Part shown: positions 54,473-63,740 of the stretch, in pieces
Layout: every line of letters begins with the position of its first letter
How positions within the stretch are numbered: position 1 is the stretch's first letter
Source of the DNA: Bacteroidia bacterium
GTDB taxonomy: Bacteria > Bacteroidota > Bacteroidia > UKL13-3
Reading direction: 5' to 3'
Assembly: GCA_021740845.1 (NCBI GenBank)
Contig: JAIOYZ010000021.1
Coordinates: 1 to 64,000, forward strand
Length of the DNA stretch: 64,000 nt
Program-made: the position numbers and the translations under genes
Notes under the pieces: generated by a model
Seen by the model: only the letters and a program-made list of their open reading frames with translations
Told to the model about the DNA's origin: nothing
The model's database searches: none

Positions 54473-54569
54473 ACCCTTGCTTCGACTGCTAGGCGGCCTT
54501 TTACAAAAATCTTAAATTTATCCTCGTTGCTGCTTGGCCATCAGTTGGCAGGTTAGTCGAACAAAGCTA

Positions 54570-54740
54570 GGTGGCTGAGCTTAGTCGAAGCCTTGTATCA
54601 ATGTTAAGGTAAATTATTCAATCAAGTGAATTTCTAAAAACCTCCGAATAGCCATGGTGGCTGAGCTTAGTCGAAGCCCTGCATCAATGTTAAGGTGAAT
54701 CATTCAATCAAGAGAACTCCTAAAAAATTTCGAATAACCA
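54570..54740 (+). repeat. Tandem 85-bp subunits of the GGTGGCTGAG element
   Basis: Two roughly 85-bp direct units start with GGTGGCTGAGCTTAGTCGAA at 54570 and 54656, each followed by a GCC(C)TGCATCAATGTTAAGG-type segment; a third start at 54741 opens the next element. The 54473-54569 bases before them hold degraded repeat words only. Confidence 0.8.
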
Positions 54741-54927
54741 GGTGGCTGAGCTTAGTCGAATGGTTGGTGAGCTTAGTCGAACCAGCCCCGGTGAATGGAG
54801 ATGAATTTTCTTGGGGAATGCTCAATACATCATGGCATGTGGCTTCGACTGCGACGCATATTTTTGTTTTGAGTGGTGTTCATTGCGGTCGCGCTTGGCG
54901 CCTGAGCGGAGTCGATGGCCAGCCACC
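54741..54927 (+). repeat. Terminal-inverted-repeat element, copy A (187 bp)
   Basis: Starts GGTGGCTGAGC and ends CAGCCACC, so the ends are inverted. Inside are AGCTTAGTCGAACC, GGCTTCGACTGCGACGC and CCTGAGCGGAGTCGA blocks. No transposase frame. Spans that stay open by chance are not genes. Confidence 0.8.
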
Positions 54928-54935
54928 AGACTCCA

Positions 54936-55098
54936 GGTGGCTGAGCTTAGTCGAAGCCCCGGTGAATGGAGACGAATTTTCTTGGGGAATGCTCAGTACA
55001 TCATGGCAGGTAGCTTCGACTGCGACGCATGCATTTTCTTTGAGTGATGTTCATTTCAGTCGCGCTTGGCGCCTGAGCGGAGTCGATGGCCAGCCACC
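54936..55098 (+). repeat. Terminal-inverted-repeat element, copy B (163 bp)
   Basis: Same layout as copy A but lacking the second AGCTTAGTCGAACC block; the copies share long near-identical stretches (for example GAATTTTCTTGGGGAATGCT). Confidence 0.8.
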
Positions 55099-55106
55099 AG
55101 ACTCCA

Positions 55107-55166
55107 GGTGGCTGAGCTTATTCGAATGGTTGGTGAGCTTAGTCGAACCAGTCCCGGCGAATGGAG
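55107..55166 (+). repeat. Terminal-inverted-repeat element, left half, running into the GIY-YIG gene
   Basis: Begins GGTGGCTGAGCTTATTCGAA and continues to the CGAATGGAG block, where the reverse-strand GIY-YIG coding sequence takes over. The right end is missing, as if the gene interrupts the element or grew from its end. Confidence 0.7.
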
Positions 55167-55444
55167 TAGGATTCACTCAACAATGGCAACTCTTGCTCAC
55201 ATGCATTTATCAGCGCAATTTTCTTTTCCCTTCTCCAGCCTTGAATCTGTTTTTCTCTATAAAAAGCTAAGTCTATTCTTTGAAATTCTTCATAATATAC
55301 CAATCTCACTGGAAGTCTTTTTTTAGTGTGATTAGCACCTAAACCATCTTGATGATCATTCATTCTTCTAGCTAAGTCATATGTGCTTCCAACATAAAAA
55401 CTACCATCATTACATTCTAAAATATACATAAATCCAATTTCCAT
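55139..55444 (-). CDS. GIY-YIG family nuclease
   Basis: Starting at the ATG at 55444 gives 101 residues (the frame is open 17 codons further without conserved words). The family motifs are plain: FMYILECNDGSFYVGSTYDL for the GIY...YVG core, RRMNDH with the Arg and His, and a late Glu in FYREKQIQGW. It fits single-domain UvrC-N/intron-nuclease-like proteins of about 90 residues. The last 8 codons and the TAA (55139-55165) come from the repeat element, encoding SIRRDWFD. Confidence 0.8.
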   Translation of the reverse strand: MEIGFMYILECNDGSFYVGSTYDLARRMNDHQDGLGANHTKKRLPVRLVYYEEFQRIDLAFYREKQIQGWRREKKIALINACEQELPLLSESYSIRRDWFD

Positions 55445-55570
55445 ACTTCTATTTTTTTTAAAGAGTAAAAGTAGTTTTGTGCATCTTAAACTCAATAATT
55501 TGAAGTAAAAGTAAATCTTGTTTTTAGGAAAAGGGCATAATGTTAAATAAGATTAGGCGAAGTATTTCCA

Positions 55571-55732
55571 GGTGGCTGAGCTTAGTCGAATGGTTGGTGA
55601 GCTTAGTCGAACCAGCCCCAGTGAATGGAGGCGAATTTCCCTTGTGAAGCAGAGTACTTCAAGGCATGTTTGGCTTCGACACGACGCATGATTTCCATAA
55701 GTTCGAATTTTTATTCTGTCTGCTCAGCCACC
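55571..55732 (+). repeat. Terminal-inverted-repeat element, copy C (162 bp)
   Basis: Left end GGTGGCTGAGC, right end GCTCAGCCACC: a perfect 11-bp inverted pair. Interior shows GGCTTCGACACGACGCATG and TAAGTTCGAATTTTTATTC. Bases 55445-55570 between the nuclease gene and this copy hold nothing recognised. Confidence 0.8.
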
Positions 55733-55764
55733 GGTTCATTGGAGGCATAGTAGAAAAAAAGCTA

Positions 55765-55902
55765 GGTGCCTGAGCTTAGTCGAAGGCCCGGTGAATGGAA
55801 GCGAATTTCCCTGGGAATGCTCAGTACATCATGGCATGTGTGACTTCGACACGACGCATGATTTCCATAAGTTCGAATTTTTATTCTGTCTGCTCAGCCA
55901 CC
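55765..55902 (+). repeat. Terminal-inverted-repeat element, copy D (138 bp)
   Basis: Left end degenerate (GGTGCCTGAGC), right end GCTCAGCCACC; its right 70 bases are near-identical to copy C. A partial left end (GGTGGCTGAG at 55938) follows and runs toward the end of the polysaccharide gene. Confidence 0.75.
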
Positions 55903-56025
55903 GTGCTTTCAGTTGGCTGCTTAGTTGCACAAAGCCAGGTGGCTGAGCTTAGTCGAATGGTTGGTGAGCAGGGTCGAACCAGCCCCGGCGAATGGAATAG
56001 AATTAATATAAGTGAGCTCGCCGAA

Positions 56026-61510: not shown

Positions 61511-61575
61511 GGGGGGGGGTTAAGAGTTAAGAGTTAAGAGTTAAGAGTTAAGAGTTAAGAGTTAAGAGTTAAGAG
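61511..61575. repeat. G9 tract plus eight tandem copies of TTAAGAG
   Basis: Nine G residues (61511-61519) directly after the stop of the membrane protein gene, followed by eight perfect TTAAGAG heptamers (61520-61575), then a looser 14-15 bp repeat of GTTAAGTTTTAAGT to about 61625. A slippage-prone region. Confidence 0.9.
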
Positions 61576-61622
61576 TTTTAAGTTTTAAGTGTTAAGTTTT
61601 AAGTGTTAAGTTTTAAGTGTTG

Positions 61623-62168
61623 AGTTGAATTATTTTTATTACTTAAAAGATAGATTTTGAGTTAAGTGTATTTTTACTAAGCCAACGGATATAGGTGGCT
61701 GAGCTTAGTCGAAAGGTTGGTGAGCAGGGTCGAACCAGTCAGGTGACTGAGCTTAGTCGAAGTCCCGATGAATGAAGGCGAATTTTCCTAGGGATGCTCA
61801 CTACTTAATTGAATGTGGGCTTCGACACGACACAAGATTTCTATAAGCCGTATTATTATTCAGTCTGCTTGGTGCCTGAGCGGAGTCGTAGGCCAGCCAC
61901 CAGGCTTACCAGTGGAAATGCTTTTCTTAATTGAAGCCAAGTTCCAGAGAATAGTCCAAAAAACAGGTGGCTGAGCAGGGTCGAACCATTATCGGAGAGC
62001 GGAGTCAAACCATTCAGGTGACTGAGCTTAGTCGAGTCACCACGGTGAATGGAGGCGAATTTCCCTAGGGATGCTCGCATCTCGATTCTCACCTCTCATT
62101 TTCTGGATTTCTCGCATCTCGTCTCTCGCATCTCGATTCTCCTGTCTGGATTCTGGAATCTGGATTCT
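61623..62168. repeat. Left bracket of the compound direct repeat
   Basis: Contains, in order: a 75-bp block (61623-61697), a terminal-inverted-repeat element 61694-61901 with a 78-bp block (61759-61836), a partial copy from 61966, and a 47-bp block (62122-62168) rich in CTCGCATCTCG and TCTGGATTCTGG words. The matching blocks recur in the same order at 63165-63651. Confidence 0.85.
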
Positions 62169-63097: not shown

Positions 63098-63740
63098 TTT
63101 AGTACTTTTTTGAGTTATGAGTGTTTTGTTTGAAAGAGTTAAGAGTTTTAAGTGTTAAGTTTTAAGTTGAATTATTTTTATTGCTTAAAAGATAGATTTT
63201 GAGTTAAGTGTATTTTTACTAAGCCATCGGATATAGGTGACTAAGACTTGTCGAAGTCCCGATGAATGTAGGCGAATTTCCCAAGGGATGCTCACTACTT
63301 CATTGAATGTGGGCTTCGACACGACACAAGTTTTCTGGAAGACCGAATTTTTTTTGCAGTCTGCTCAGCCACCAGACTTCGACACGACGCAAGATTTCTA
63401 TAAGCCGTATTATTATTCTGTCTGTTTGGTGCCTGAGCGGAGTCGTAGGCCAGCCACCGGTGATACCAATGATTTTCTTTAACATGCTTCAACCACGCAC
63501 GGTGGCTGAGCAGGGTCGAAGCCCTGTATCAATGAGGAATCCAAACATTCAATAAGCAGAATTTCCCACAATGTCAACTTAAAACTTAAAACTCACTTCT
63601 TCCTTCTCTCGCATCTCGATTCTCCTGTCTGGATTCTGGAATCTGGATTCTGGATTCTTTCTTTTACGATTGCTCTCAGCCAACACAGCTAAGAAAAATC
63701 TCCTCCACAGAATAAAATATTCCCTATTTTCGCCCAAGCC
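63098..63740. repeat. Right bracket of the compound direct repeat
   Basis: Contains the TTTTAAGTGTTAAG words (63145-63170), a 75-bp block (63165-63239, 2 mismatches to 61623-61697), a 78-bp block (63253-63330), two right ends GCTCAGCCACC/CAGCCACC (63363-63373, 63451-63458), a left end (63501-63510) and a 47-bp block (63605-63651) identical to 62122-62168. No gene is credible inside; open frames are repeat translations. Confidence 0.85.
63725..63732 (+). promoter_or_regulatory. -7 box for the UpxY-like gene
   Basis: TATTTTCG, a TAnnTTYG element, 8 bases before the ATG at 63741. A short leader is implied. Confidence 0.45.

Follow-up and report, generated by a model that had tools for sequence, protein, structure and literature searches.

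A single-domain GIY-YIG nuclease gene and a family of short, tagged hairpin repeats probably make up one genetic family, a REP-like system with a GIY-YIG enzyme as companion instead of a RAYT. Nuclease and hairpins occur together at well over a hundred loci, which span several bacterial phyla. The genes are bracketed by the hairpins, the stems of the hairpins covary, the tags co-segregate with the nuclease clades, homology between copies of the unit is bounded by the hairpins, and the number of repeats correlates with the presence of the nuclease at the genome level.

The nuclease gene and the repeats in the window

The window, meaning the whole stretch of 64,000 nucleotides that was analysed, contains one such gene, listed with the surrounding repeats in Table 1. 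In a profile search the product matched PF01541 with an E value of 1.5e-16 (60.9 bits, cutoff 22.6), and the domain together with conserved Tyr, Arg and Glu residues places it in the GIY-YIG superfamily. Tyr17, Gly19, Arg27 and Glu64 were invariant across 26 homologues. An AF2 model had a confident predicted fold (pLDDT 87.5), and the closest PDB structures were UPF0213 proteins and SLX1. ATG at 55444 is the preferred start of the ORF, and its extension to a TTG at 55495 is mechanical.

The preliminary description had stated that the C terminus of this protein, SIRRDWFD-stop, consists of repeat sequence. Translation of 55139–55165 confirmed both the coordinates and the content, as the + strand reads TTAGTCGAACCAGTCCCGGCGAATGGA, which in reverse complement encodes S-I-R-R-D-W-F-D-stop. 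About 8–10 residues separate the end of the conserved GIY-YIG domain from the stop codon, which makes the repeat-derived part a tail outside the domain. The same bases were found, as had also been described, in gene-less 81-nt copies at 54738–54818, 55568–55648 and 55935–56015. Members of this family (D4) are 81–91% identical to the reference copy (54738–54818) over 81 nt.

Table 1. Positions of the nuclease gene and of repeat features in the window
Feature	Position	Strand	Remarks
Tagged hairpin AGGT-GGCT-GAGCTTAGTCGA-AGCC	54569–54592	+	
Tagged hairpin TGGT-GGCT-GAGCTTAGTCGA-AGCC	54655–54678	+	
81-nt D4 reference copy	54738–54818	+	No gene attached
Tagged hairpin TGGT-TGGT-GAGCTTAGTCGA-ACCA	54761–54784	+	
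Two 171-nt tandem units	54784–55125	+	92% alike; hairpins 54896–54919, 54935–54958 and 55067–55090
D4 copy overlapping 3' end of nuclease gene	55104–55184	+	
Tagged hairpin TGGT-TGGT-GAGCTTAGTCGA-ACCA	55127–55150	+	3' end of nuclease gene
GIY-YIG single-domain nuclease gene	55139–55444	-	101 aa; ATG at 55444, stop 55139–55141
Repeat-made last 8 codons and stop of nuclease	55139–55165	-	
D4 copy on 5' side of nuclease gene	55568–55648	+	Same orientation as 3' copy
Tagged hairpin TGGT-TGGT-GAGCTTAGTCGA-ACCA	55591–55614	+	5' side of nuclease gene
Tagged hairpin AGGT-GCCT-GAGCTTAGTCGA-AGGC	55764–55787	+	
D4 copy	55935–56015	+	Hairpin 55958–55981; no gene attached
Second repeat cluster, without nuclease	61714–61764	+	Hairpins 61714–61737 and 61741–61764
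Tagged hairpin CGGT-GGCT-GAGCAGGGTCGA-AGCC	63500–63523	+	No gene attached

The core motif GGCTGAGCnnnGTCGAA was present in 18 copies in the genome from which the window comes, against none for a reversed control, and no Rfam structure matched up to an E value of 1 between 53.8 and 64.0 kb. The tandem units, which comprise hairpins and spacer, suggest local amplification of composite repeats. Tandem runs of 7-nt units (AAGAGTT / TTAAGTG) at 61522–61626 and 63134–63168 immediately precede the second and third repeat clusters.

A separate 16-bp palindrome, TTYGGTTYRAACCRAA, occurs 540 times in the window's genome (G000; reversed control, 0), and 36 sites with the core GGTTYRAACC lie in the window between 6798 and 60945. 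This highly iterated palindrome looks genus-restricted among the genomes searched, with 3 to 187 copies in 15 genomes of the same genus and 0–1 in nine genomes from other families of the class.

Anatomy of the hairpin

Eighty homologous loci were collected from GTDB genomes. The protein tails beyond the GIY-YIG domain (FDSAQPP, PELVEG, VVSTSSTT and LRLRSG) proved to be a single sequence read in varied frames and directions, and the DNA beneath them is GAGC-n(2–3)-GTCGA within a short stem. The repeat is thus a tagged hairpin with a covarying 4-bp stem and an invariant GAG...CGA loop, of the general form tag + N4 + GAG n(3–8) CGA + N4'. With a trailing A, the motif gave 221 matches in 727 kb of homologue loci, against one for the reversed control, and 184 of these fall between -1000 and +500 from the end of the domain. 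When elements were chosen by the loop alone and one was taken per locus, pair 3 of the stem was paired in 95% of elements, compared with 44% when partners were shuffled. The sequence of the stem varies from genome to genome, with the pairing retained.

Nuclease genes are bracketed by hairpins

A hairpin with a perfect stem was found within 350 bp of 94/99 genes in the clade that includes the window nuclease (the core clade) and 44/59 genes in a sister clade, against about 4% of control windows in the same loci. In two other single-domain GIY-YIG groups only 1/9 and 0/18 genes had one at this distance; the SGRAF-type GIY-YIG group tested is not bracketed by tagged hairpins. Among Y1_Tnp loci (RAYT/IS200-type) from genomes of the same family, 0/30 had a hairpin in the flanks, which were taken at fixed locus coordinates.

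Similarity between the flanks was also assessed independently of the motif, in three nuclease groups defined by profile score. It exceeded the 99th percentile of control positions for 72% of genes in the core group, 90% in the second and 59% in the third. This analysis also flagged 6/24 genes of the negative group, which on inspection were found to have tandem duplications, tRNA repeats or terminators, and not tagged hairpins.

The upstream hairpin lies a median of 44–47 bp from the start codon. At the other end, a hairpin overlaps the end of the ORF in 44/87 core genes, and this overlap accounts for the repeat-derived C termini. The expectation that C termini would repeatedly derive from the element was therefore borne out among the homologues (FDSAQPP, PELVEG and VVSTSSTT being examples), and the overlap between nuclease end and repeat is the rule, not an oddity or a product of chance. 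The link with inverted repeats that had been drawn earlier holds in part. The nearest hairpins face inward, with the tags outermost, in 56 of the 89 genes bracketed on both sides, but the window gene sits between direct repeats, as all of the surrounding copies are on the + strand.

The tag follows the nuclease clade

In the core clade the tag was NGNT, mostly GGT, in 88/88 callable genes, and in the sister clade it was GTCA in 34/41. The seven exceptions we read mostly as core-type genes that are truncated or outlying. Mapped on a tree of 241 nucleases, the tag changed twice, against a mean of 36.2 changes when tags were shuffled (0/500 shuffles gave a value as low as two), on a tree built from few columns with many weak branches and in a type of test that near-copies inflate. 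The separation of tags between the nuclease clades is very strong. When tetramers were scanned, TGTC, GTCA and CGTC emerged in the second and third groups, but GGT was missed in the core clade, whose tag was obtained by loop-anchored extraction.

Copies of the unit

In genome G205, two units about 6 kb apart are 77% alike, and the homology between them has the hairpins as its exact limits, with unrelated sequence beyond. Because it ends there, gene and hairpins travel together. G021 has two units, on different contigs, that are 84% alike over 399 bp. No nuclease remnants were found in the other repeat clusters of the window's genome. Judged from sequence, the arrangement fits an autonomous unit accompanied by non-autonomous copies. 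At one further locus (L348, G037:C5:11000-16200) a GIY-YIG gene and its flanks are tandemly duplicated, with 98.6% identity over 763 bp.

Repeat number and nuclease presence across genomes

Motif copies were counted across 346 genomes, all from the window's class and at least 90% complete. The median was 28 copies in genomes with a core nuclease (control 6) and six in genomes without any match at an E value of 1e-15 (control 6). The difference was significant (Mann–Whitney p 9e-11) and persisted in a within-family permutation (p 0.0005), which corrects in part for relatedness. Repeat density thus tracks the presence of the nuclease, as had been proposed as a check.

Two observations had been named in advance as ones that would count against the link. 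Orthologues lacking nearby repeats are not the general pattern, nearly all core genes being flanked, but genomes G063 and G070 have few repeats despite a core nuclease. Likewise, repeats are not in general equally dense in genomes lacking the nuclease, but some near-complete genomes without this type are rich in them: G074 has 249 copies, G052 has 182 and G081 has 83, and the GIY-YIG genes in these three are of other kinds. The copies in G074 carry GTCA and some of those in G052 carry GGT, and by their sequence the repeats in G074 and G052 may be remnants of systems that have been lost. One contig of G081 (C11:86-2095) also has GAGCTTGTCGAA ten times, spaced exactly 222 bp apart.

Other phyla and the CGTC-tagged repeats

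Homologues belonging to the core clade are placed by their record titles in Bacteroidota, Cyanobacteria, Chloroflexi, Microbacterium, Fibrobacter and proteobacterial bins, some of which may reflect binning errors. A further 57 genomes were sampled from the class of an alphaproteobacterial bin. Strict CGTC/TGTC-tagged hairpins lay within 250 bp of 14/31 related alphaproteobacterial genes, compared with 18/513 control windows, and were associated with 0/13 other GIY-YIG genes in this sample. At locus L231, CGTCATCCCCGCGAAGGCGGGGATCCA flanks both sides of the GIY-YIG gene. Counts of specific stems across the 57 genomes were mixed: G390 has 24 copies of a stem that also brackets its gene, and G399 and G385 have 59 and 37 copies, respectively, with no matching bracket seen.

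The hairpins that bracket the alphaproteobacterial GIY-YIG genes match the CGTC-tagged REPs, a superfamily that includes dRS3 and RPE-4/RPE-6 and that, according to the authors who described it, apparently has no dedicated transposase, none adjoining the repeats (Di Nocera 2013, PMC3733652). An unpaired CGTC/TGTC/CCTC tag is seen in the sister-clade (GTCA) and alphaproteobacterial elements and is absent from the window element (AGGT/TGGT). A stem of 8–9 bp starting with AT, with a loop of 4–5 and a CCA tail, was seen in alphaproteobacterial elements such as CGTCATCCCCGCGAAGGCGGGGATCCA and not in the window element.

Proposed mechanism and alternatives

From these patterns we infer that the nuclease cleaves DNA, where it cleaves, and that the repeats are mobilised in consequence. 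The autonomous unit would be about 400 bp long and consist of a tagged hairpin, the short nuclease gene and a second tagged hairpin, with single or paired gene-less hairpins as its putative non-autonomous copies. What the nuclease recognises is most likely the imperfect hairpin (the 4-bp stem and invariant GAG...CGA apex) together with the 5' tag, probably when the hairpin DNA is single-stranded or extruded, and it would cut at or near this structure. SLX1, one of its fold neighbours, is a structure-specific endonuclease, which we count in favour of this explanation. Spread could then occur if the cut were repaired by copying, or if a released unit were captured during repair. We know of no DNA-joining activity among GIY-YIG enzymes, and joining would therefore fall to the host. 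The repeat-made C terminus simply arises where translation runs on into the downstream hairpin until it meets a stop.

Other explanations have to be weighed against this one. The nuclease unit could be a separate selfish element, similar to a freestanding homing endonuclease, that finds a landing site or a safe haven in pre-existing hairpins and does not mobilise them. Homing endonucleases commonly have GIY-YIG domains, the nuclease genes are far fewer than the repeats, and G074, G052 and G081 retain repeats in the absence of the nuclease. However, the tag follows the nuclease tree with only two changes, which would not be needed of a passive landing site, and both the exact end of unit homology at the hairpins and the increase in repeat counts with nuclease presence argue against this explanation, which we regard as unlikely. 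It is considerably less probable again that another enzyme, a RAYT or an IS200-type HUH transposase, moves the hairpins with the nuclease as a passenger. The window's genome does have four Y1_Tnp genes and most of its relatives have some, but the lack of a hairpin beside any of the 30 Y1_Tnp loci led us to reject a RAYT as the mobiliser, and the CGTC repeats are likewise without an adjoining transposase (Di Nocera 2013, PMC3733652).

The positions of the hairpins, close upstream of the start codon and, in half of the core genes, overlapping the stop region, would suit regulatory parts of the nuclease gene, such as a terminator or a cleavage site for mRNA autoregulation, that were later copied by recombination. 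Yet most genomic copies are gene-less, including the window clusters at 61.7 and 63.5 kb, no trace of the nuclease was found in the genome's other clusters, and the tags, which lie outside the 4-bp stem, are conserved, so that we give this explanation marginally less weight than movement by another enzyme. Small ORFs are easily miscalled in dense intergenic repeats, and a chance association or annotation artefact might have been suspected for that reason. The ORF encodes a conserved catalytic domain, and the scarcity of hairpins in control windows of the same loci and their near absence from other GIY-YIG groups refute such an artefact, to which we attach scarcely any credence. As the agent that spreads a large repeat family reported to be without a transposase, the GIY-YIG class is so far the best candidate. 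On balance we also favour, somewhat less firmly than the basic link between gene and repeats, the broader proposal that single-domain GIY-YIG nucleases are the dedicated mobilisers of the entire CGTC-tagged REP superfamily and its GGT relatives, a second REP class that is independent of RAYTs and spans several phyla.

Comparison with known systems

UPF0213/YhbQ-like GIY-YIG proteins and SLX1 are the nearest solved structures, and we know of no association of either with repeats. The freestanding GIY-YIG homing endonucleases are similar in being mobile genes encoding little beyond one GIY-YIG nuclease, but here the gene lies between hairpins that it shares with many gene-less copies.

The repeats themselves are in part already known, and as far as the open-access literature shows their link to an enzyme is unreported; we found no prior report there connecting a GIY-YIG enzyme with them, which is not proof that none exists. 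Palindromic repeats of the CGTC superfamily are present in many bacterial genomes and were reported without an enzyme. The bracketing nuclease, whose clade predicts the tag of the repeat, offers a concrete candidate amenable to purification and testing. The link also explains the odd, repeat-derived C termini of many annotated GIY-YIG proteins. TGTCA/CGTCA-tagged hairpins bracket the sister-clade and alphaproteobacterial nucleases, several with the CCA tail of the CGTC superfamily, whereas the window element has a GGT-type tag and is, by that tag, a relative and not a CGTC REP. If the proposal is correct, the question of the CGTC REP enzyme left open in 2013 is answered.

The closest parallel is with the REP/REPIN-RAYT systems of the GTAG superfamily, to which the preliminary description had likened the window locus. 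The anatomy is shared: short tagged hairpins, often in opposite-facing pairs and in many copies per genome, flank one small nuclease gene, and the type of repeat matches the clade of the enzyme. The likeness does not extend to the enzyme or the tag. The companion here is a GIY-YIG nuclease, unrelated in fold and chemistry to the HUH Y1_Tnp enzymes, the tag is NGNT (mostly GGT) or GTCA and not a 5' GTAG, and the GAG...CGA loop is invariant. If the nuclease does spread these hairpins, REP-like systems have had at least two origins, each with a chemistry unrelated to the other.
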